59,770 nt of DNA from Thermoplasmata archaeon (GTDB lineage Archaea; Thermoplasmatota; Thermoplasmata; Thermoplasmatales; GCA-001856825), in NCBI GenBank assembly GCA_021797915.1, contig JAJZYT010000009.1, forward strand, positions 1 through 59,770, read 5' to 3'. Under the pieces are notes generated by a model. That model did no database searches and was not told where the DNA came from. It saw nothing but the letters and a program-made list of their open reading frames with translations. The position numbers were made by a program, and so were the translations under genes. How positions within the stretch are numbered: the stretch's first letter is position 1; each line of letters starts with the position of its first letter. This document shows positions 19,217-47,543 of the stretch, piece by piece.

Positions 19217-20209
19217 TTACATGTTAGGCCTTTGACTAGAGTCGTGTCGTTCTGCTAGTCGGACGGATATATTTTCGCCTTTCGATAAACTATCCAGCTC
19301 AACCTGAAATAACATGTAATTCTCCTTATAAAAGTAGTGTCTTGGAAAAGATATAACTGTCTCCTTGGCTCCGTTTATTAGCGTTTTCAATATTCTAACA
19401 TCATACCCTTTTTCTGCTATGACGGTAATCCGTAAGGCATTAACAGGAGCCTGTGCCAAGAAGTTTATCTGAGAGTCTGGTTTAGGTATGGTGTACTTTA
19501 CAAAAACGAGATCCTTCTCACCACTTGACAAATTTTTGTTTAGAGTAATCGAAATCCCCGTCTCTAAAGTAGTTGAAAACGGGATTGATATCATAAATGG
19601 CATTATCTCATCGGTCTCGTCGTGTATTTTTAGCTTCAAAAAATCCACAGAATCCAATGGACCATATGGAATGAAAAACGGGATCTTTTTAATTGGAATT
19701 TGGCCAATATTCGTTGGTTCCAAGAAGGCGGAAACTACCAATTGCTTTTTCGAGAAGTCATAGTTCAGTGTAACTTGCTCGAATTTCAATCTCTCCTTTA
19801 AATCAACTTCTGGAGTCTTCGAGTAGAAAGGTTTGTCGTTCCATATTGTCTTTTCAATCAGGCCAGCGGAAACTGCTTTCTTGAGGGACCTGTTAAATTC
19901 TTCATTATAGACAGCTCCATCGAAAGACATTTCCATTTCCTTCTTCAATGATGTGTACGTCACTCTTTCTGTCCTCATCCTTCTTGTCACATATTCCGTT
20001 AAAGCCAAGTACAAGTTCCTAGTCCTTTTGTCAGGTTTTTGAAAATTCGAGAATGAAGAATCTGTTTTAAGAAAGTGGATACTCTTTGGTCCGTGATAGA
20101 ATCTACCGTAATGGTAAATTTTGCCACTCTTGGCTTTAACATATTTCCTCGACTTATTAGCTTTCTTGCCACATACAGGACATGTGGAAACTTGTCTATG
20201 TTTTTTCAT
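19217..20209 (-). CDS. Zinc-ribbon/winged-helix protein, cassette copy 1, gene B
   Basis: Unknown family. The 330-residue protein has an N-terminal metal site C10-x2-C13-x25-H39-x5-H45 within a basic hairpin (SGKIYHYGRFYHG), then a helical region at about 60-125 that looks like a winged helix, and a beta-rich C-terminal domain of about 190 residues. It is the downstream partner of gene A: its ATG lies 14 nt before the stop of A, so both are made from one mRNA. A paralogue in the same order lies at 46578-47543. The N-terminus suggests nucleic acid binding; the beta-rich part has no obvious enzyme motif. Could be a regulator or a surface-structure factor; nothing decides this. Confidence 0.8.
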   Translation of the reverse strand: MKKHRQVSTCPVCGKKANKSRKYVKAKSGKIYHYGRFYHGPKSIHFLKTDSSFSNFQKPDKRTRNLYLALTEYVTRRMRTERVTYTSLKKEMEMSFDGAVYNEEFNRSLKKAVSAGLIEKTIWNDKPFYSKTPEVDLKERLKFEQVTLNYDFSKKQLVVSAFLEPTNIGQIPIKKIPFFIPYGPLDSVDFLKLKIHDETDEIMPFMISIPFSTTLETGISITLNKNLSSGEKDLVFVKYTIPKPDSQINFLAQAPVNALRITVIAEKGYDVRILKTLINGAKETVISFPRHYFYKENYMLFQVELDSLSKGENISVRLAERHDSSQRPNM

Positions 20210-21155
20210 GTCGCTTCCACTTGAATTTTAGCACGGCGAATGCAGGGAGATTCACCATCTCGAACGTCTCGACATTTAGATTGTCTTTCTTAGTAGTCGA
20301 GATTACTCGCGAAGATAAATCTTCTACTACGGTTCTGCCTGAGTTAGTTCTAGTTACTGTCATTTCGAAATCACCTCTAGACACAAGAGAGAATCGGAAG
20401 AAGTCCGTAGGAGTGGGGGAAGTAAACATATAGGATGGTCCTATTTCTGGCCAGAAATATTCAATGGACATAGTTCTTTCCACATTAGGTAGTATTGGCT
20501 CTCTCAGTTCGATTAAAATTCTCTTCAACTGAGGGTTGTCTTCAAGAAAGTAGATAACGGCTTTTTCCTTTCTTGATAAATCGTAGGAATTGAACGATAG
20601 TTTGCCTCTGTCTCTCACGTTATCCCCAGTAGCTCTGAACTGGATGTAATGCAGAGGAAACTCACTGTCGTTTAGTATCGATGTCCTGAAGTAATGACGC
20701 TCGAAAGTTCCTTCATCAGCACTGTCTTCGAGAGTGATGTCTACCCTCTTCATGATGTACTCCAACCTCTCGCGAATTGTACTATTTATGAAGTAAACCT
20801 TTCTGTTCCTCCTTATGATCAAAAGCAATCCGGATTCAACAAGCTTTGACAGACTTCTCCTGAGGCGTTCATCGTCCGTGGTGAGCCCTCCTTTCTCGAA
20901 TTCAGCTGCAATATCTTTTATGGTAAAAATCGCCCTTCTAAACCCAGTCGTATTTAGAAGTCCGATTAGTTTTTTTCTGGTATCATCTTTTTCAACTCTC
21001 CCTGGAGAATTAGCACCTATCCTAACCCAGTGCACTGTGCTTTCGTGGTGAAACACTTCATAGTCGTACCTTTTACCAGATTTCTTCCTTGTCCATTTCC
21101 TTTCTTTGCTACCGGGCTTATTGCAAATTGGACAAATCCTAGCAGAAGAGCCCAT
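20196..21155 (-). CDS. Zinc-ribbon/winged-helix protein, cassette copy 1, gene A
   Basis: Unknown family, paralogous to the protein at 45568-46581. The metal site is C8-x2-C11-x25-H37-x4-H42 with KKSGKRYDY between; residues 55-115 (KKLIGLL, FTIKDIAAEF, LRRSLSKLVESGLL) form a likely winged helix; a beta-rich domain of about 190 residues follows, containing IEYFWP and FTSPTPTDFFRFSL. I chose ATG 21155 rather than 21164 because the TATA box at 21179-21187 is then 25 nt away. The IS630 copy at 21195 begins just upstream of this promoter. Its last codons overlap gene B. Confidence 0.8.
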   Translation of the reverse strand: MGSSARICPICNKPGSKERKWTRKKSGKRYDYEVFHHESTVHWVRIGANSPGRVEKDDTRKKLIGLLNTTGFRRAIFTIKDIAAEFEKGGLTTDDERLRRSLSKLVESGLLLIIRRNRKVYFINSTIRERLEYIMKRVDITLEDSADEGTFERHYFRTSILNDSEFPLHYIQFRATGDNVRDRGKLSFNSYDLSRKEKAVIYFLEDNPQLKRILIELREPILPNVERTMSIEYFWPEIGPSYMFTSPTPTDFFRFSLVSRGDFEMTVTRTNSGRTVVEDLSSRVISTTKKDNLNVETFEMVNLPAFAVLKFKWKRHEKT

Positions 21156-21178
21156 TACGGTCATTGATAAATTTCCGA

Positions 21179-21187: not shown

Positions 21188-21200
21188 TTCTGAATTATAG

Positions 21201-21752
21201 TTAAACACCTAACTTATTACACTTTATGAATTCTTCACTTAAGAATTCTTCAATCCATGATTTTGCGAATGAAAGTAACGACGAAAATCTGTAGAACAGG
21301 GCTTGGACGATGTGTTTTAGATGCATTTCTGAAGCGATGAATGTATTTGATATCTGTCTCTTCAATGACTTCCATATGAACTCGATAGGATTTAGGTCTG
21401 GTGAATAGGATGGCAGATATACGAGGTATATTTTCAACTTCGCTGCCCTTATCAGAGTTTCTGGAGAATGGTGGGGCTTGAAGTTGTCTATTATTGCCAC
21501 AATCCTCCCATCCGGATTCCTCTTCCTGATTAGAGAGAGGAAATCCATTATGTCCTCCTTCCTTGAATTCTCATGGAAATCAACTGCACTCCTTCCATTC
21601 AGGGAATAGAGGCCGAAGGTGTTCGCTCTGAACTTTGTGGTATTCTTGACTATCTCAGGCTTGCGGAAGGACCACAGTCTCTGTGTGTTTGCAGTTGTTT
21701 GCGGTGAAGCCTCGTCTATGAACCCTACTATGTCCCCCTCATCCAGAGTCAT
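21201..21752 (-). CDS. IS630 transposase, DDE catalytic part
   Basis: Catalytic half (about 183 codons) of the transposase. The triad can be placed: D in GFIDEASPQ, D in VAIIDNFKPHHS, and E in SPDLNPIEFIWKSLKR, the last being the most typical IS630 block. It has an ATG at its head, but this ATG lies within the A9 run, and fusion to the upstream HTH part is needed for a full enzyme. Joining requires a +1 shift, or loss of one A in the run. The stop codon lies within the left inverted repeat. Confidence 0.88.
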   Translation of the reverse strand: MTLDEGDIVGFIDEASPQTTANTQRLWSFRKPEIVKNTTKFRANTFGLYSLNGRSAVDFHENSRKEDIMDFLSLIRKRNPDGRIVAIIDNFKPHHSPETLIRAAKLKIYLVYLPSYSPDLNPIEFIWKSLKRQISNTFIASEMHLKHIVQALFYRFSSLLSFAKSWIEEFLSEEFIKCNKLGV

Positions 21753-22230
21753 TTTTTTTTAGATCATCATCAGCATTCTTCGATCCCCTGTAGTCATGGG
21801 GATATGGTTTGCCGAACCTCATTCCGAACCGCCTCAACAGCTCTCTCACGTGCTTCATTGAGTATTCAATACCATACTTCTCCTTTATCAGCACCCTTAC
21901 CTCCCTAGTGGACCAGTCATCCCTCCTCTCCAGGACGGAGACGAGCGACCTCTTCTCATCGTCGTCCAGCAGCGGAGGCCTGCCGCCGGCGAACCTCGGA
22001 ATGAGACCATTGAAACTCTCCGTGTTCCACCTATCCTGCCATATGTATCCCAGTTTCTTAGTGATACCGACAATCTTGGCAGCCTCCTCCACTCCCTTTC
22101 CCTGATACCGGAGCTTTACGAAGTACAGCCTCTTCAGTACTCTGCCGTTCTTCTCGAGATCCCTTATTCTCTTCTCTATTTCAGTTAATGGTACAACCCT
22201 GTTGATTGGATTTATCTCTCCTCTTGCCAC
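21739..22230 (-). CDS. IS630 transposase, DNA-binding part
   Basis: N-terminal half (163 codons) with two helix-turn-helix units: one in KGVEEAAKIVGITKKLGYIWQDRWN, and a winged helix in STREVRVLIKEKYGIEYSMKHVRELLRR, as in IS630/Tc1 transposases that bind the inverted repeats. The frame runs through CTA-AAA-AAA-AAT and stops ten codons later. It overlaps the DDE frame by 14 nt at this slippery run (T run 21752-21760 on the plus strand). Confidence 0.88.
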   Translation of the reverse strand: MARGEINPINRVVPLTEIEKRIRDLEKNGRVLKRLYFVKLRYQGKGVEEAAKIVGITKKLGYIWQDRWNTESFNGLIPRFAGGRPPLLDDDEKRSLVSVLERRDDWSTREVRVLIKEKYGIEYSMKHVRELLRRFGMRFGKPYPHDYRGSKNADDDLKKNDSG

Positions 22231-22348
22231 GAATGATTATAACATTACAGTGTAAATAGTTATGTGTCATACTATAGTTGAGGAAGACTTAACCATTTCC
22301 AAAGGAACCGCTGCCATCTAGCAAGCCGTTGAAGTTAATCATGCTCCA

Positions 22349-22558
22349 TATGATTGTGAATGCTGTGGCAAGTAAGAATACAAAAGACATTGGATCACCT
22401 CCAAAGGAACAATATTCTTAGACCATTTTCAAACAATCATCAAGTTTGAGCCCCTTAACGCTAAAGATTTAAGGGAGTTAAGTGTGGCCGTAGAAGGCGG
22501 AAAACTCAATGTGACCAGTCCAAGGCTGGTGTCATTTAACCTTATTATAATCAGTTAA
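22349..22558 (+). pseudogene. Decayed gene remnant with a Cys-rich start
   Basis: A frame with an early in-frame stop reads YDCECCGK, stop, EYKRHWITSKGTIFLDHF and continues to a TAA at 22556-22558. The Cys cluster followed by a basic, aromatic hairpin has the general look of a zinc ribbon. Another in-frame stop lies at the upstream side near 22320. No start and no intact family member is recognisable. The remaining bases 22278-22861 are AT-rich and hold nothing else I can name. Confidence 0.3.
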
Positions 22559-22861
22559 CGCCTCTTTCACTTGGATAATCCTCAATGCAAATCAAACCTT
22601 CAACAAATTAGAAACATTTTTCAACAAATGAAAATTTATGTGGAAAAAATGTCATTTGCAGTTGTGACATCCTAATGCTATCAGCTATCAGAATATTTAT
22701 CTACCCCTTCGACAGTTGATTCCTTTCTTCTTACGCTGAACTGGCTTATATTATGTATTTTTCTAACTCTTCGTCACAAGTTCCCATTTTCTCTTGATTG
22801 ATTCTCTAACTAAGAAATTACCCTAAAATAATCATTTGAGCTACATCTTTGGCGATAAAGA

Positions 22862-24136
22862 ATGCACTTACGAAGAACGACTCTTTTAGTTGCTGCCTCT
22901 TTTGCCGTTGTAATTTTGATGGTACTTGGGAGCAGCTCTGCTACGATTAACGTATACGTGCCAAATGGTAACACTACCAAAAATTGGGCAGGAAGTGAAG
23001 GAGACACCAGTTTACCGGCCTTTCAACCTCTTAGCGGGAGTCCCTGGACTAATCTCGGAGCACTGACCACCGATGCCAACGTCACTTCCTATACCACCGA
23101 CCAATACGTGGGAAGTGGATATTACGACGTATTCGATGTAAATGTGGCAGGCCTTGTTGCGGTAAATGAATCAAACGGATATCAACCTTCAATGATAAAA
23201 CTTGGAGCCTATATGAATCAAAGCATTAATCCGTACAATGTGAGCAATCTAGAGGTAAGTGCACAGCTAGTTGGCGGATACAGCGGAACTGGTGTAAATA
23301 TTACAAATCCTGCAACTATTTCAATTCCACCTTTATATGAGGCAATTGGAGAAGGAGCCGCAGCTGCGCTTGACTTGTATGTTGGTAACATTTTACCAGG
23401 TCTTGCAGTCACCGCAGCTTTCTATTACTATAATCAATACGCAGAATCCTATGACAGCCAATTCTCGTCAGCCCAATCAGTCTATGGGACGAAAGAATTC
23501 TTTGACACGTATGATGTAAAAACCCAGCCCTATCTCGCTTATCAGTATGCTGCTCTAGCCCAGCTGGCCCTTCAGTGGTCAATACCATATGGAGAGATCG
23601 ATGCCGGTCAAAGCTATTCGTTGACTCTATTTTCTGCCGCGTACTATCCACATTCAGGGTCGTGGAATTATACATACACTTATCTAACTGTAGCTAATCA
23701 AAACAGTGGGGGAGGAGGTTGCGTTGCAAAAGGTAGCCCAATTCTAACTCCAGACGGATATGTTCCAGTGCAAGATATCAAGACAGGGGATTCTGTAGAA
23801 GGGTTCAACTTTTTAAGTGGGTCACTTGTAAAGGAGAGAGTGCTCTTTAACAACAAGACTGAAGTTTCGAACGTTATAAACGTAAATAATGGAACTCTGT
23901 TGTTAACTCCAACTGATCAGCCATTATACATTATGAATTCGACGTTTATAGGATGGCTAAAGAACCCTGAAAACTTAACTGCAGGGGATAGTATTTTTAA
24001 TCCTTTGAACAATTCTTGGACTCAGGTTTGGAGTGTCGCATTGGAGACTGACCATACGATTGTGTATGACCTAGTACTGACGAGCCCAAATAACTTCATA
24101 GATAACGGTTTCTTGCTTGACACAAAGACAGGTTAA
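22862..24136 (+). CDS. Secreted protein with C-terminal Hint (intein-like) domain
   Basis: The 424-residue product has a signal peptide (residues 1-27, ending GSSSA), an Asn/Thr/Tyr-rich beta-type outer region (28-280), then a GGGG linker and a domain of 138 residues that matches the Hint fold: C287 in GGGGCVAKGSPILTPDG, VPVQDIKTGDSV, a block B-like LLLTPTDQPLYI, LTAGDSIF, and near the end VYDLVLTSPNNFIDNGFLL. Hint domains self-process (splicing, N-terminal cleavage or ester formation). The block-B His is Gln here, and the usual terminal His-Asn is missing (ends DTKTG), so splicing is unlikely and N-terminal cleavage uncertain. An early ATG with no clear SD; single transcript, followed by a small membrane protein. 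Confidence 0.82.
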   Translation: MHLRRTTLLVAASFAVVILMVLGSSSATINVYVPNGNTTKNWAGSEGDTSLPAFQPLSGSPWTNLGALTTDANVTSYTTDQYVGSGYYDVFDVNVAGLVAVNESNGYQPSMIKLGAYMNQSINPYNVSNLEVSAQLVGGYSGTGVNITNPATISIPPLYEAIGEGAAAALDLYVGNILPGLAVTAAFYYYNQYAESYDSQFSSAQSVYGTKEFFDTYDVKTQPYLAYQYAALAQLALQWSIPYGEIDAGQSYSLTLFSAAYYPHSGSWNYTYTYLTVANQNSGGGGCVAKGSPILTPDGYVPVQDIKTGDSVEGFNFLSGSLVKERVLFNNKTEVSNVINVNNGTLLLTPTDQPLYIMNSTFIGWLKNPENLTAGDSIFNPLNNSWTQVWSVALETDHTIVYDLVLTSPNNFIDNGFLLDTKTG

Positions 24137-24162: not shown

Positions 24163-24429
24163 ATGGATGAAATCATGTTGAATTCGGTTCAGTTTGGTGA
24201 GGGGATTGCGGTAACTATAATATATATTATCGTACTGATATATTTACAGACCATTGACGATGGATTTAGCGACAAACAATATGGATTGATTTTAGCCTCC
24301 ATTGTAATTTCCTTCTCTGTTCTTATGGGGGTAATAGCCTGGAGTGTATCAACATTTATTTATTTTCTAGGCTTAATTTCTCTTGGTGCATTCATTGTCG
24401 CGATAGGAAGAAGGAGAAGGTACAAATGA
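24163..24429 (+). CDS. Small membrane protein next to the Hint protein
   Basis: An 88-residue protein with about three hydrophobic helices (residues 14-32, 43-62, 64-83) and a basic tail RRRRYK. The TATA-like TTTTATATC at 24135-24143 is about 25 nt before the ATG, so it has its own leaderless promoter. The family is unknown. Its stop TGA overlaps an ATG (ATGA) that opens a tiny 24-codon frame, which I do not regard as a gene. Being directly downstream of the Hint-domain gene, it may be a partner, but this is a guess. Confidence 0.6.
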   Translation: MDEIMLNSVQFGEGIAVTIIYIIVLIYLQTIDDGFSDKQYGLILASIVISFSVLMGVIAWSVSTFIYFLGLISLGAFIVAIGRRRRYK

Positions 24430-24706: not shown

Positions 24707-25252
24707 TTATTGTAGTCTATTAGGGATGAACATTCTTATCCATCCTGCTGCATAGGAATTGAATGATAATATACCCAGGAATGCGCTTTCTATCACTCTC
24801 TTCAAGTGCCATTCAGACATGACGAAAGTTCTTGACACGATTCTCTTTATGCTCTTCCACAGAAACTCAATGGGATTCAGATCCGGAGAATATGGTGGAA
24901 GGAATACAAGCCTTATGCTGAGTTCCTCTGCTTTCCTTCTCACTGCTAGAGACCTGTGGGATGCGAAGTTGTCCAGTATCACGGTTATTCTTCTGTTTGG
25001 ATTAGCCATTCTTATCTTGTCGAGGAAGATACAGACATTTCCCTGCTTTGATTGATCCATGAAGTCGACCGTGCTGTTGCCGTTTATTGAATAGAATCCA
25101 AAGCAGTTCGCTTTGTAGTTATCGGTCTTCTTGTACTTGGTAGGCTTGAAGAATGACCACATTCTCACCATATTGGATGTGGTTCGAGGAGAAGACTCAT
25201 CTAGAAAGCCTATGGTCTCCTGATCGACGTCAGGATGCCCTAAGTTTTTTTT
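24707..25252 (-). CDS. IS630 transposase copy 2, DDE catalytic part
   Basis: Catalytic half read in the frame that continues after the A8 run. Triad residues are D in GFLDESSPRTTSN, D in VILDNFASHRS, and E in SPDLNPIEFLWKSIKR. No start codon lies at its head; the frame is open further upstream (to 25408) only as overlap with the HTH part. A -1 shift, or gain of one A in the run, joins it to the first part. Confidence 0.85.
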   Translation of the reverse strand, partial: KKNLGHPDVDQETIGFLDESSPRTTSNMVRMWSFFKPTKYKKTDNYKANCFGFYSINGNSTVDFMDQSKQGNVCIFLDKIRMANPNRRITVILDNFASHRSLAVRRKAEELSIRLVFLPPYSPDLNPIEFLWKSIKRIVSRTFVMSEWHLKRVIESAFLGILSFNSYAAGWIRMFIPNRLQ

Positions 25253-25722
25253 AGAATTTCCTCTGCATTTCTTGGTCTGCGATAGTCGTGTTGATACGGC
25301 TTTGAGTAGTGCATTTTCAACTTCTTCAGTAACTTCCTCACGTGCTTTATGCCGTATTCCACACCGAATCTGCCCTTGATCATCTTCCTCACTTCTTCGG
25401 TTGTCCAATCGTCCCTCTTCTCCAGGATCGATCTGAGTTCTGTCTTCTGTTCATCCGACATCCTGGACGGCTTACCTCCAGCAAATCTTGGTGTGAGACC
25501 GTTAAACCCTTGCTTGTTCCATGATTGTTGCCAGTAGTACCCGACCATCTTTGTGACTCCAACGTTTTTTGAGGCTTCGGCAACTGAAGATCCCTGATAC
25601 CTGTATTTTATGAAATACAGTCTCTTCAGAATCCTCACATCCTTTTCCATTGACCTTATCCTGATCTGTATTTCCTCAAGAGGGACTGACCTGTTTATCT
25701 TAATCTCCTCCTTTCTGGCCAT
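25240..25722 (-). CDS. IS630 transposase copy 2, DNA-binding part
   Basis: The 160-codon N-terminal half with the same two helix-turn-helix units as copy 1 (SSVAEASKNVGVTKMVGYYW and TTEEVRKMIKGRFGVEYGIKHVRKLLKK). It ends just after CTA-AAA-AAA-ACT-TAG. The A8 run (T run 25245-25252 on the plus strand) is at exactly the same place as the A9 run of copy 1. Confidence 0.85.
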   Translation of the reverse strand: MARKEEIKINRSVPLEEIQIRIRSMEKDVRILKRLYFIKYRYQGSSVAEASKNVGVTKMVGYYWQQSWNKQGFNGLTPRFAGGKPSRMSDEQKTELRSILEKRDDWTTEEVRKMIKGRFGVEYGIKHVRKLLKKLKMHYSKPYQHDYRRPRNAEEILKKT

Positions 25723-42847: not shown

Positions 42848-42915
42848 CCTGAGGATTCATTCAACAAAGCAGCGTTTACGGAAAATATTAATAAATCCGG
42901 TTTAATACACTACTG

Positions 42916-43554
42916 ATGGATAACAAGAAGCGGAGATTGCAAAAGATAACAGGAATATTCGTTGTTCTGGAAGCCGTCTTCTTGTACTATTTGGTAGGAC
43001 TGTTGCTGGCCGGATACCGTCCAGGGCACCTCCTATTAGGCTGGAAGGACTTAAATGTCGGCCTTGATGTCGCCAATCCACTCAAATACTTCCCAGGTCT
43101 GATCTATGTTCTGAAGACTTTCTTTCCTCTCTATTTTGATTATGTTTACCGTGTTCCCCCAAGCATCCCTCTATCTCTTAACGCAATCAATCAAGGATAT
43201 GCGACACTAAATTTCTTTTCTCTGTTTTGGATTGGGTTGATAATTGCGATCGTTCTAACCGCGATACTTTACGCTGTAAGAATTAGATCGAAAATATTCT
43301 TGGGAGGGACCCTTGTTCTAATGAGTATCTTGCCCATAATATTCAGCATTTATCCAGTCATGGGAAATGGTTTGTACTTCAGATGGAGTTTTCTCTATGC
43401 AACTGTCAATTTTAGAGGCATTCCATTTGTCAGTACGTATGAAGTGCTGTTGCCTTATCTCTTGATTGGACTCGCCCTCTGTTCAGCAGGCATCTACATG
43501 CTGGTCCCTTCGGTAAGAAAGAGAAAGCCCATCGACAGTGAACATATTTCGTAA
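42916..43554 (+). CDS. Membrane protein, paralogue of 53995-54375
   Basis: A 212-residue protein with about five hydrophobic helices. The N-terminal KKRRLQKITGIFVVLEAVFLYYLVG is clearly shared with the 126-residue protein at 53995 (KKRIVRMTSIFVALETVFVYYASG), and the helix LFWIGLIIAIVLTAILYAVRI also matches. The family is unknown. A TATA-like TTTAATAC upstream supports the start. Single gene. Confidence 0.7.
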   Translation: MDNKKRRLQKITGIFVVLEAVFLYYLVGLLLAGYRPGHLLLGWKDLNVGLDVANPLKYFPGLIYVLKTFFPLYFDYVYRVPPSIPLSLNAINQGYATLNFFSLFWIGLIIAIVLTAILYAVRIRSKIFLGGTLVLMSILPIIFSIYPVMGNGLYFRWSFLYATVNFRGIPFVSTYEVLLPYLLIGLALCSAGIYMLVPSVRKRKPIDSEHIS

Positions 43555-43705
43555 TTGTTTTCATAGAGCACAAGAATGCTAACAAGCAGGAAGCAATTGT
43601 ATCAGGTTAGTTGTGCAGAATTTTCTCCGAGTCAATTAATTATCAGGACTTTTGCAATTAGTAGTGTAAAAATTGATAATTTAAAAAGGAGAGAGAGAAA
43701 AATGA

Positions 43706-44977
43706 TTAAACATAAGAGTTATTCCAAGTCAGAGTTGGATAACCGTATTCTTGTACATCCCCGAAGCCGTTCCACTGCATCGTATACTTGGTGTAAATAT
43801 TTGGCCACCAACCCGAATCCCACATCATTGTAAAGTTGGTATATACCGAGTCATTGAAAAGAGTCGTGATTTGGTAACTAGCGTCGTTGAGACCTAGTTC
43901 TACATCTCCCCCCTCAAATTTAGCAGGTGGCGAGAACTCCGGAAGCTTTGCTATCTGTGAGAGTTCGAACACATCGTTGGATTCTACGATGAACTGTGCA
44001 TAGTAAGTGTATTCCTTGACATCGTAGTTGATTCCATACTCGATAGTTGTGTTCCTATCGTAAATGGTGAAGTTAACGTAAAATGGGACTTCAGTGCTTG
44101 GGTCGTAGCCATCGAATGCAGATGCCCATATAATATTGCCGGGATAAGCATATGAGGAACTACTGTAAGGCTGTGGTAAGTTAGTAGGGTAATCTTCCCA
44201 CCATAATGGATACTTGCTGGGAATCAAGTCAGTAGAGCCATTGTATATACCCACTCCTGTTTGCAAAAGCCCACCATTGCCGTAGTATCCCTTAGATATG
44301 CCCACCCACTCGCCATATTGAAAAGGAACGTTAGTCGTGTTCTGGAGAGGAGGAGGATATGAGAGTGTAGGTACATTCATCCAAGCGGAAGCAGAATTTA
44401 CCGTCTTGTTGCCAGTTAACGGACTATTGAATTCGTATCCCGCCCAGGGTTGAGAGGTATTGGTCACATTAGAATACGCTCCTGTTGGCATTGAAAAATT
44501 TGTATAGGTATAGTCCGAAACTGTATCGTGATTTCCAGTTTCAACATACAGTGGAAATGATATCTGCAAGAAATCTTCTACTGGTTGAGGCCCTGTAGAT
44601 GCAGAACCTGGGAACAGGAAATAAATGGTACTTCCGTTTTGGTTCGAAGTATTGAAAGCAATGGTCCAATAGAAACTGTCTCCCTTAGAGAACAGACCTG
44701 AAAAGAGACCGCTACCGGTAATATAACCTCCATCAAGGACAATTTCTTTACTTAAAGCTGAAGAGTTCATTGATTTGCCTAGTTTCTCCATAAGGTTGTT
44801 GGTTGAGTTCGCGAATGCATTTGCGTCTACAACTGATATAACACTTGGACTTAGCACCTCAGAAGGAGTTGCTGTATTGAAAGATGAAGTTGACGAAACA
44901 GAGGAATAAAATCCGCTCGTTGACATCAGGATTACGACTATTGTTGCCAAAACGACCTTCATGTTGATTCCATTCAT
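43706..44977 (-). CDS. Peptidase G1 (eqolisin)-like secreted acid protease
   Basis: A 423-residue secreted protein: signal peptide at about 6-28 (MKVVLATIVVILMST), a propeptide-like region, then the eqolisin fold from about 175. Matching landmarks are PWAGYEF (178-184), GEWVGISKG, GLLQTGV with Q239 in the place of the catalytic Gln, WWEDYP (259-263), and YYAQFIVES around E332, the position expected for the catalytic Glu. Eqolisins work at very low pH, which suits an acidophile. About 160 residues before the core would be unusually long as a propeptide. Match made by eye to the known dyad pattern. Confidence 0.7.
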   Translation of the reverse strand: MNGINMKVVLATIVVILMSTSGFYSSVSSTSSFNTATPSEVLSPSVISVVDANAFANSTNNLMEKLGKSMNSSALSKEIVLDGGYITGSGLFSGLFSKGDSFYWTIAFNTSNQNGSTIYFLFPGSASTGPQPVEDFLQISFPLYVETGNHDTVSDYTYTNFSMPTGAYSNVTNTSQPWAGYEFNSPLTGNKTVNSASAWMNVPTLSYPPPLQNTTNVPFQYGEWVGISKGYYGNGGLLQTGVGIYNGSTDLIPSKYPLWWEDYPTNLPQPYSSSSYAYPGNIIWASAFDGYDPSTEVPFYVNFTIYDRNTTIEYGINYDVKEYTYYAQFIVESNDVFELSQIAKLPEFSPPAKFEGGDVELGLNDASYQITTLFNDSVYTNFTMMWDSGWWPNIYTKYTMQWNGFGDVQEYGYPTLTWNNSYV

Positions 44978-45422
44978 TTTTTCATCTCAAATGAAAATTA
45001 CGCAGACTTACTATATTAGAGCAATGTCCTTGTTAGAAAATTCGACCAAGCAGACTTTTCGTATTACACAAGAAACACCGAAAAATCTAGTGTCTCTTGC
45101 TAAACGGCGAAATCGCTCAAAAAGAAAGTGATAGTATTCCACTCTTCAAAAAATATGAGGTAGGAGGCTGTGTAGTACTTATTAGGAAAAACTTTTCTAA
45201 AATTGAGAACACGATTTTTCTAAAAGTGTTACTAGATAGAAAATCTTTCTCCTAATTACAAGTGAGACGAACAGTTATCGCTCCAGTTTTTCTAGGATTC
45301 TTTGATGGAACAGATTCAGACAAGTGAATCATCTGAGAAATGGAAAAGGCTCTATTTTAAATTTCTAACTCGGTGTTTGTTCTAAAATAATACAAGATTT
45401 ATTGATTTTGAGAGGTGATTTA
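44978..45422 (+). other. AT-rich stretch without genes
   Basis: About 445 bases between the eqolisin gene and the 30-codon gene. It is AT-rich with many short repeats of A and T. The promoter of the eqolisin gene must lie at its left end (minus strand), and a TATA-like CAAGATTTATTG at about 45391-45402 precedes the small gene. Nothing else is seen. Confidence 0.5.
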
Positions 45423-45515
45423 ATGATATACTCCATTCTACTGTTCTCGGGGGCCCTCATCTGGACCCTTGTACAGGTCATAAAGCCTTTCGAGGATAAT
45501 TCTCTTGGGAACTAA
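45423..45515 (+). CDS. 30-residue membrane microprotein
   Basis: ATG 45423 to TAA 45513-45515 encodes 30 residues, mostly one hydrophobic helix (IYSILLFSGALIWTLVQVI) and a polar tail KPFEDNSLGN. A strong Shine-Dalgarno (AGAGGTGA) lies 5-6 nt upstream, and a TATA-like box precedes it by about 25 nt plus leader. This mix argues for a real gene. Function unknown; it lies 53 nt before the zinc-ribbon cassette copy 2, on the same strand. Confidence 0.55.
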   Translation: MIYSILLFSGALIWTLVQVIKPFEDNSLGN

Positions 45516-45567
45516 AGTTTCATCGAATGAATTATCAAATTTTAATAGCTAAAGTAACTGATTAGCT

Positions 45568-46581
45568 ATGGGAAAGAAACCATTTCAGCAAACCTGCCCG
45601 ATATGCGGCGACACCGCTACGATTACTAGAAAATGGGTAAGGAATAGATCCGGCAAGCGGTACGACTATGTGCTGTATCATCACGAAGGGATCACACACT
45701 GGTTGAATCAGAATCTCAGAACCACTCATAGATTACGCAAGAAGGAAGCGCAGGATAAGTTGGTTTTTCTGCTAAATTCACGAAGATTCAAGCAGGCAAT
45801 ATTTACTTTGGATGAGTTAATGGCAACTCTGAGGCAAGGAGAGAATGGTCTGCAACATAGACAGATTAGAGAATCGCTTAGCAGACTGGTAAGTCAGAAT
45901 CTTGTGGAATCAATAAGAAATGGCAGAAAGGTTCTTTACATTAACAATTTTAACCCAAATAGGCTTTATTATGTTATAAAACAAGCTGATATTTCTCTAG
46001 AAGATACCAAGAGAAATCACACCTTCGAGAAGCATATATTCAGGTTCGAAATTCTAAATGACAATGCTTTCCCACTCCAATATATACAATACAACACCGT
46101 AGGTGACGACCCTCGTGAAAATGACGAAGTATCGTTCCTTGCATATGACCTCAAAAAGAAAGAAAATGCAAGGATTCATTTCATTGAAGATAGTCCTCGA
46201 AGGAAGAGGATAATAATCGAATTCGCTACCCCCATTCTTCCGAGAGAAAGCAGAAAGTTATGCTTAGAGTATTTCTGGCCTGTTACTTCCTATCTCTCTT
46301 CATTCACTGCCCCTACCCCTATAAAATCACTTAGGTTTTCGTTAATCTCTAAGAGTAGAGAACCAATGGAAGTGTTGAGAACAAGTGCACAACGAACCGA
46401 GATAGAGGATGAGTCGGAGAAGGTTATAACTACTGACTTTAGGAATGGAGTTTTCATCGAGAGCTTCGTGGCTGAAGATTTACCTGAATTCACTGTCTTG
46501 CAATTCAAGTGGGCAAAATCAGTGGAACAGGAACAAGAAGAAAACAGGAAAGATGCACTCAAACGATTGGAGAAGCAATGA
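45568..46581 (+). CDS. Zinc-ribbon/winged-helix protein, cassette copy 2, gene A
   Basis: Paralogue of the protein at 20196-21155, 337 residues. Metal site C10-x2-C13-x25-H39-x4-H44 with RSGKRYDY between; a winged-helix-like part (KLVFLLNSRRFKQAIFTLDEL, IRESLSRLVSQNLVE); then the beta-rich domain with LEYFWP and FTAPTPIKSLRFSLIS, matching copy 1 closely. A charged tail EQEQEENRKDALKRLEK is extra. TATA-like ATTTTAATAG about 25 nt upstream supports leaderless start. The stop overlaps the ATG of gene B (ATGA). Function unknown. Confidence 0.82.
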   Translation: MGKKPFQQTCPICGDTATITRKWVRNRSGKRYDYVLYHHEGITHWLNQNLRTTHRLRKKEAQDKLVFLLNSRRFKQAIFTLDELMATLRQGENGLQHRQIRESLSRLVSQNLVESIRNGRKVLYINNFNPNRLYYVIKQADISLEDTKRNHTFEKHIFRFEILNDNAFPLQYIQYNTVGDDPRENDEVSFLAYDLKKKENARIHFIEDSPRRKRIIIEFATPILPRESRKLCLEYFWPVTSYLSSFTAPTPIKSLRFSLISKSREPMEVLRTSAQRTEIEDESEKVITTDFRNGVFIESFVAEDLPEFTVLQFKWAKSVEQEQEENRKDALKRLEKQ

Positions 46582-47543
46582 AAAGTAATAGACTCGCTTC
46601 AAGATGCAAAATCTGCGGGAAGGAGGCATCAGTATCCAAATGGTGGACTAAGGCAAAAAGTGGGAAGGTGTATTATTACTTAAAATACCAACACTCGCCT
46701 CACACTTTCCACCTTGTACCGACCGATTCCACTTACTCCCACTTCATCGAGCGTACCGATAAGGCGAAAAACTTGTATTCACTAGTCGAAGATTTTATTA
46801 CAAGGAAAATGAGACAGAGGAGATTCAGATACACTGCATTGATTAGGGAAATGGAAAGGATTTATAAAATTAAATTCTCTAACGAGGAGTTCAACCGGGC
46901 GTTGAAGAAGGCAACCATCGGTGGGTTAATCGAGAAGGTTGCTTATGGAAGACGTGCATTGTACACAAAGGCGTCCCCTATAAGTTCAGTAAAAGAAATA
47001 ATTTTCGACAGAGTAGCCATTAATTATAATTTAGGTGTGACCGAGGTAATCGTTACTGTTTTCTTAGAAGTGACCAATAACGCGAGTACACCTCTGGAAA
47101 ATGTCCCATTTTATGTGCCAAAGGGAATGGTGAGCTCATTAAATGATCTCCGTCTGAGTGGCCATGATGAACTCGGGATACTATCTAAAGCCAGTATGAA
47201 AATAGTCCTTCCAATGAGTATGCAGACTCTAATTTCAATATCACTCAATAGGACTTTAAGTAAAAGTGAACAAGAATACCTAACACTCTCCTACGAAATT
47301 CCTAGGAGTGATGAAGATATCAGATTTATTGCTCCTGCGCGCATAAATTCAATGAGAATAACAACAGTCTCTGTTCAGAAATTCAGCCTGACTATTGGTA
47401 GAATTTTGGTAGACGGAGCTAGAGAGACAATATTGCCATTTAGAAGGAAGTGTTTTTCGAAATTTGGAATTAATTGCCTGGAAATAGAACTGGATAGAAT
47501 AAGCAAAGGGGAGAGTATCTCCATCAAGGTAGGCGCAACTTAG
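46578..47543 (+). CDS. Zinc-ribbon/winged-helix protein, cassette copy 2, gene B
   Basis: Paralogue of 19217-20209. It begins MKSNRLASRCKICGK; the site is C10-x2-C13-x25-H39-x5-H45. Residues 60-130 contain ITRKMRQRRFRYTALIREMER and EEFNRALKKATIGGLIEK, shared in pattern with copy 1 (VTRRMRTERVTYTSLKKEME, EEFNRSLKKAVSAGLIEK). The C-terminal beta domain ends ELDRISKGESISIKV versus ELDSLSKGENISVRL in copy 1. An upstream in-frame start at 46509 exists inside gene A, but the ATGA overlap and the position of the zinc site favour 46578. Confidence 0.82.
   Translation: MKSNRLASRCKICGKEASVSKWWTKAKSGKVYYYLKYQHSPHTFHLVPTDSTYSHFIERTDKAKNLYSLVEDFITRKMRQRRFRYTALIREMERIYKIKFSNEEFNRALKKATIGGLIEKVAYGRRALYTKASPISSVKEIIFDRVAINYNLGVTEVIVTVFLEVTNNASTPLENVPFYVPKGMVSSLNDLRLSGHDELGILSKASMKIVLPMSMQTLISISLNRTLSKSEQEYLTLSYEIPRSDEDIRFIAPARINSMRITTVSVQKFSLTIGRILVDGARETILPFRRKCFSKFGINCLEIELDRISKGESISIKVGAT

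Follow-up and report, generated by a model that had tools for sequence, protein, structure and literature searches.

Two adjacent genes whose products look like DNA-binding proteins with large beta domains raise the question of what such a pair does, and on which genes it acts. They lie in the window (the whole stretch of DNA that was analyzed, 59,770 nucleotides of a Thermoplasmata archaeon contig). A sequence-only reading had described them, here genes A and B, as a pair of unlike proteins present in two copies.

Architecture of genes A and B

The window contains two cassettes with both genes:

20196-21164, minus strand: gene B of the first cassette, 322 amino acids
19217-20209, minus strand: gene A of the first cassette, 330 amino acids, 14-nucleotide overlap with B
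45568-46581, plus strand: gene B of the second cassette
46578-47543, plus strand: gene A of the second cassette, ATG at 46578, 4-nucleotide overlap with B

The adjacency and the 14-nucleotide overlap described for the first pair hold. Position 21155, earlier given as the start of B, is an in-frame second ATG, and the full gene starts at 21164. By profile alignment A and B are distant paralogues, as had been suggested (hhalign 99.4%, E 5.6e-22), and the 265 aligned columns extend into the beta-rich part.

The putative zinc ligands are spaced C11-x2-C14-x25-H40-x4-H45 in B and C10-x2-C13-x25-H39-x5-H45 in A, and both proteins have an SGK-x-Y-x-Y hairpin. The four ligands (CxxC...H...H) are invariant in alignments of 16 B and 16 A proteins, which confirms the C-x2-C-x25-H-x4/5-H pattern read from a single pair. 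A B homologue of the sister genus G318 (L108 572-1720) has two tandem zinc hairpins, not one. AlphaFold2 models of B alone and A alone (mean pLDDT 83 and 81) both contain a beta-hairpin zinc-type domain, then a winged helix (three helices and a wing), then a long all-beta part, in agreement with the winged-helix-like and beta-rich parts recognized earlier. We read the all-beta part of the models as two beta-sandwiches. The proteins are soluble and basic.

No match of A or B above chance was found in Pfam, NCBIfam, PHROGs, PADLOC, or the PDB sequences; this rules out membership in a known family there and upholds the earlier statement that the pair matches no described regulator family. Recurring weak matches to Penicillinase_R, FUR, and PadR are confined to the winged-helix part. 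In Foldseek, the C-terminal ~220 residues of A and B resemble ribophorin I (Ost1) and the M1 aminopeptidase N-domain at E 1e-7 to 1e-5, with low TM-scores (~0.31-0.40) and a sequence identity of 7-18%, and one A protein has a weak Pfam match to Ribophorin_I (E 0.0042). The likeness is one of beta-domain fold. Because these matches cover the beta part only, they do not amount to a strong match to a characterized family, and no listed PDB match spans all three domains. In contrast to ribophorin I and the M1 aminopeptidases, A and B have no HExxH motif, no signal peptide, and no transmembrane segment (32 proteins were covered for the latter).

Distribution and pairing

This genome contains five B-A pairs, two in the window, one on contig C1, and two on contig C7. 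The second copy in the window is real, but a count of two falls short of the genome-wide number. The genus contains the I-plasma metagenome-assembled genome ATMD01000001. Among the genomes searched, which are drafts and in many cases metagenome-assembled, the pair is carried by 10 of the 11 from the genus and by one genome in each of two sister genera; the genus genome that lacks it is 52% complete. In other relatives sampled from the order and phylum, matches are short and weak throughout and mostly involve the winged-helix part.

Gene A lies directly downstream of B at all 27 recognizable B genes in the I-plasma relatives and the two sister genera, so that the homologues do occur in pairs, as expected from the first reading. 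Three A matches without a B could have been single homologues; they turned out to be truncated fragments and do not count as such. The tree of A agrees with that of B (Mantel r 0.93), and part of this congruence is expected from co-inheritance alone. The earlier proposal was a co-translated pair that forms a heterodimeric DNA- or RNA-binding complex. Constant pairing (27/27) of two winged-helix, zinc-type proteins agrees with its DNA-binding form, a heteromeric complex.

A conserved microgene upstream of B

The unit is larger than was first seen: it includes a microgene (mu), a divergent surface gene, and a shared promoter element, and the first cassette is split by an IS630 insertion. Mu is conserved and has 30-37 codons, so that a length cut-off in an ordinary gene caller would likely exclude it. 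It shares the strand of B and lies ~35-65 bp upstream of that gene. The product has a hydrophobic transmembrane-type span (19-residue hydropathy 1.7-2.6) and a conserved Gly-rich tail. Shine-Dalgarno sequences are strong (GGAGGTGAT, GGGGGAT or GAGGGA). The two copies in the window are:

22289-22390, minus strand: mu of the first cassette, MSFVFLLATAFTIIWSMINFNGLLDGSGSFGNG, with a perfect Shine-Dalgarno GGAGGTGAT (HMM E 3.6e-9)
45423-45515, plus strand: mu of the second cassette, MIYSILLFSGALIWTLVQVIKPFEDNSLGN

We found mu in 23 of 26 readable pairs, with three lacking a recognizable copy. A profile HMM has 22 matches with E < 1e-7 in the genus, and 21 of these adjoin B. At the remaining one (G288:C42), mu and the surface gene are kept and B-A is lost beyond the first codons of B. 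The length of mu is constant within each of five orthologue groups, and pN/pS is 0.29-0.58 (0.29 for the first-cassette mu and its G302 orthologue), the single values being rough for such short genes. By these substitution patterns mu is under purifying selection. The gene arrangement suggests that mu-B-A is encoded as a unit, in that order, transcribed away from the divergent gene.

Genes divergent from mu

In the window, the genes opposite mu are:

22862-24136, plus strand: divergent gene of the first cassette, a 424-amino-acid secreted or surface protein with an N-terminal transmembrane segment and a C-terminal Hint domain
43706-44977, minus strand: divergent gene of the second cassette, a surface protein of 423 amino acids without a Pfam match

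At six loci (both window cassettes, C1, G304, G302, and G288) the gene opposite mu encodes an N-terminally anchored surface protein rich in Asn, Ser, Thr, Tyr, and Gly. All six have an N-terminal transmembrane segment, and five of the six pass a filter that 5.9% of sampled open reading frames also pass. All-against-all blastp rules out a single surface-protein family: the proteins are mostly unrelated, with no relation among types. The first window cassette and G288 both have the Hint type (53% identity), and the G288 homologue is also beside a mu gene. Hint is a self-processing domain, here at the end of a secreted archaeal protein (22862-24136). A small membrane gene downstream of it (24163-24429) is conserved in G288 (L143 5422-5709).

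Around the C1 cassette there is a family of short coiled-coil surface proteins, anchored in the membrane and arranged in tandem. With this family at C1 occurs a thioredoxin-like membrane protein (DUF929), which is also found beside the G302 and G300 loci. Members of the coiled-coil family are:

L034 8553-9212, 13163-13804, and 13890-14528
L131 419-1060

In pairs I and II (the contig C7 type), no surface gene stands directly at the start of the divergent transcript, which has a leader there that is apparently non-coding; in pair II this leader precedes a type IV pilin (Pilin_N). A candidate "gene Y" beside these pairs was rejected as likely not coding and, in pair II, likely a structured leader. 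Pair II leaders (L036 3330-3490, minus strand, L042 16627-16787, plus strand, and orthologues) have an invariant GGAGGGGCCA and then a hairpin of 12 bp, several pairs of which show compensatory changes; this is likely a small RNA or attenuator. Pair I leaders (L047 2737-2967 and L041 2055-2285, both minus strand, and orthologues) have an invariant ATCCCCCTC that is complementary to the Shine-Dalgarno region (GGGGGAT) of the adjacent mu-I. A conserved soluble protein of ~144 amino acids (motif LLISLHSIEFS...NLLYLLYIKKV), with no significant Pfam match, is encoded divergently from pair I and some pair II cassettes:

L047 2097-2531, minus strand
L041 1422-1889, minus strand
L036 2676-3083, minus strand

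A promoter element shared by mu and the surface genes

The promoters of mu and of the surface genes have a common element, TTCTAAY-N2-GG-N2-WTTG-N4-AAWATA, whose distance to the start codon is ~60 bp if the likely ATG is taken. The window contains four copies:

22424-22450, minus strand: mu promoter element of the first cassette, diverged form CTCAAACTTGATGATTGTTTGAAAATG, starting 60 bp from the mu ATG
22804-22830, plus strand: element of the Hint surface gene of the first cassette, CTCTAACTAAGAAATTACCCTAAAATA, 58 bp before the ATG
45363-45389, plus strand: mu promoter element of the second cassette, TTCTAACTCGGTGTTTGTTCTAAAATA
45012-45038, minus strand: surface-gene element of the second cassette, TTCTAACAAGGACATTGCTCTAATATA (20/27, 0 of 300 shuffles)

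With at most one mismatch the 11 genus genomes have 12 matches, of which 11 lie at cassettes, in both promoters, and the reversed control has none; the patterns were derived from these loci themselves and copies of different cassettes are related by descent, so the counts are not independent events, but the control and the near-absence elsewhere are still informative. An extra element near C11 (NfeD-like gene) was judged chance or unrelated.

Compared with dinucleotide shuffles, the divergent-strand match was equaled in 0/300 for the second window cassette, C1, and G225, in 1/300 for G304, and in 2/300 for G288. At the first window cassette and G302 it does not beat the shuffles; there the mu elements have diverged and the surface-gene elements are still recognizable. 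The surface-gene region of the first cassette matches the G304 mu element (20/27), and its match to its own diverged mu element is not significant. Co-divergence of the elements within a cassette is clear in C1 only.

Both cassette types have a shorter form, TTCTAAYT-N13-RAAATA, in their mu promoters. A 21-bp palindrome, AGTTAGAA-N5-TTCTAACT, joins two half-sites between two divergent promoters in pairs I and II; it has 11 sites in the 11 genomes, all at these cassettes and 71-72 bp ahead of the start codon of mu (control 0). Each half faces its own TATA-like box 13 bp away, the spacing seen in the other cassettes, and there is a further half-site at the B promoter.

Insertion, shared blocks, and apparent exchange of surface genes

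21195-22275, minus strand: IS630-family insertion between mu and B of the first cassette, transposase in two frames (21201-21752 and 21739-22230)
42864-47525: block of the second cassette shared with G225 (L037) at 82% identity, with a 212-amino-acid gene, the surface gene, mu, B, and A

The G302 orthologue is uninterrupted and aligns on both sides of the insertion. We therefore reject the idea that the cassette is an IS630 passenger. No inverted repeats of at least 14 bp were found at the ends of the insertion, whose boundaries were taken from the alignment. Despite the IS630, B of the first cassette retains a TATA-like box just upstream of its ATG. A second IS630-type transposase is found at 24707-25722, in two frames (24707-25408 and 25240-25722, both minus strand).

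The location of the G225 block is otherwise unrelated, and its 20-kb surroundings share nothing else with the window. The first cassette and G302 share a block that extends from the promoter element of mu almost to the end of A. G288 retains the intergenic region of the second-cassette type together with a surface gene of the Hint type, and homology to the latter starts at its ATG. Judging from these comparisons, the intergenic region behaves as a unit that takes different surface genes.

Possible function

We propose that A and B, encoded in the order mu-B-A, form a local transcription regulator with two different subunits that acts on mu and on the divergent surface or appendage gene. That A-B regulates both the mu and the surface-gene promoters, in either sense, seems to us fairly probable. 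A-B would likely bind it through two winged helices. In the cassettes of the window and C1 the element is asymmetric, as would fit two subunits that differ. A heterodimer could recognize TTCTAAY and GG-N2-WTTG, the dissimilar halves of this element at a distance of roughly one helical turn, as well as the symmetric site in pairs I and II.

It is plausible that A-B then switches on mu and the surface gene together, since the conserved half-site is 13 bp upstream of a weak TATA-like box, where activators that recruit TFB act in archaea. The site of TFB-RF1 from Pyrococcus furiosus (PMC5937170), like that of EarA from Methanococcus maripaludis (PMC5512572), directly precedes a weak BRE/TATA with conserved spacing, and the cassette element is placed similarly. 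This position favors activation over repression, and by analogy A-B is probably an activator. TFB-RF1 also has a palindrome, TCTGAANTTCAGA, in the promoter of its own operon (PMC5937170), as do pairs I and II. TFB-RF1 and EarA are single proteins, whereas here there are two paralogues with a zinc hairpin and a double beta-sandwich, a membrane peptide, and a divergent surface gene. At the level of family searches, no sequence relation of A or B to them was detected: none of the regulator families in Pfam or NCBIfam matched significantly.

Another archaeal two-protein module with a zinc-type domain is ArnA-ArnB of Sulfolobus acidocaldarius, which has a zinc finger in one partner and controls surface-appendage genes (PMC6509490). 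ArnA and ArnB are not paralogues, however, and contain FHA and vWA domains, respectively; no Pfam match to either domain was found in A or B.

As a last step we guess, with some doubt, that mu acts back on A-B, perhaps by way of the beta domains that resemble ribophorin and the M1-aminopeptidase N-domain. In the Rgg-SHP/RRNPP systems of Gram-positive bacteria, a short hydrophobic peptide gene is beside a cytoplasmic DNA-binding regulator that also controls a neighboring target, and mature SHPs, such as EGIIVIVVG, end in Gly (PMC7564271, PMC12700828). Here too a short hydrophobic peptide gene adjoins regulator genes (in 23/26 readable pairs), and there are several paralogous pairs per genome. 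The differences are that RRNPP regulators have C-terminal TPR helices while the C-terminal part of A and B is all-beta in the models, that there are two regulators instead of one, in archaea instead of bacteria, and that the hydrophobic part of mu is a full membrane span. Mu as a ligand of A-B, with the beta domains as a candidate site, is only an analogy with Rgg-SHP (PMC7564271). A complete peptide-sensing switch, in which the aminopeptidase-N/ribophorin-like domains of A-B would bind mu or a fragment with its Gly-rich end and turn their own peptide gene and a swappable surface gene on or off, is unlikely in our estimate.

Another regulator could bind the element instead of A-B. If this were a resident global regulator, A-B would act on RNA or on the export or modification of surface proteins, and the genes would travel as a functional cluster. 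RNA or peptides are conceivable ligands of the zinc hairpin and the beta-sandwich domains, and the beta part comes nearest in fold to protein-handling proteins, namely ribophorin I and the N-domain of M1 aminopeptidases. We give this explanation a low probability: the element is almost only at A-B loci, which is unexpected for a global regulator, and winged helices are present in both models. It is quite improbable that the cassette is a toxin-antitoxin-like module in which mu is a membrane-damaging hydrophobic peptide, silenced by A-B or by the divergent leader RNA of pairs I and II. Mu (30-37 amino acids) resembles type I toxins in size and hydrophobicity (PMC8309996), ATCCCCCTC in the pair I leader complements the mu-I Shine-Dalgarno GGGGGAT, and the pair II leader has a covarying hairpin. 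Antisense-type complementarity to mu was seen as a short C-rich complement of the Shine-Dalgarno in pair I leaders only. Against this reading, C-rich stretches complement any Shine-Dalgarno. In the cassettes of the window and C1 a surface gene, not an RNA, is opposite mu, the G288 mu survives without B-A, and the conserved tail of mu suggests a specific partner.

The block of the second cassette is found at unrelated places in two close relatives, and an IS630 is inside the first cassette, as might be expected if the cassette were part of a virus or transposon that A-B serves. We regard that as very improbable. A scan of viral contigs with the B profile found no relative, A and B have no PHROG match and no full-length viral fold match, pairs I and II are in conserved chromosomal synteny, and the G302 orthologue does not have the IS630, which is an insertion.

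Biological significance

Peptide-controlled transcription is well described in Gram-positive bacteria. To our knowledge, little has been established on how archaea control changing surface proteins. Mu and two paralogous regulators of a new fold combination form a conserved three-gene unit, a concrete and testable system in which a fold known from secretory-pathway and peptidase proteins is joined to DNA-binding heads. The unit has its own bidirectional promoter code and occurs in several copies beside unrelated surface proteins. If the peptide-sensing switch is true, it would represent a system for peptide communication or surface variation that has no relation to the RRNPP systems of bacteria. 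As judged from their gene content and promoters, these loci look like a previously unknown switch for the cell surface in acid-loving I-plasma archaea.
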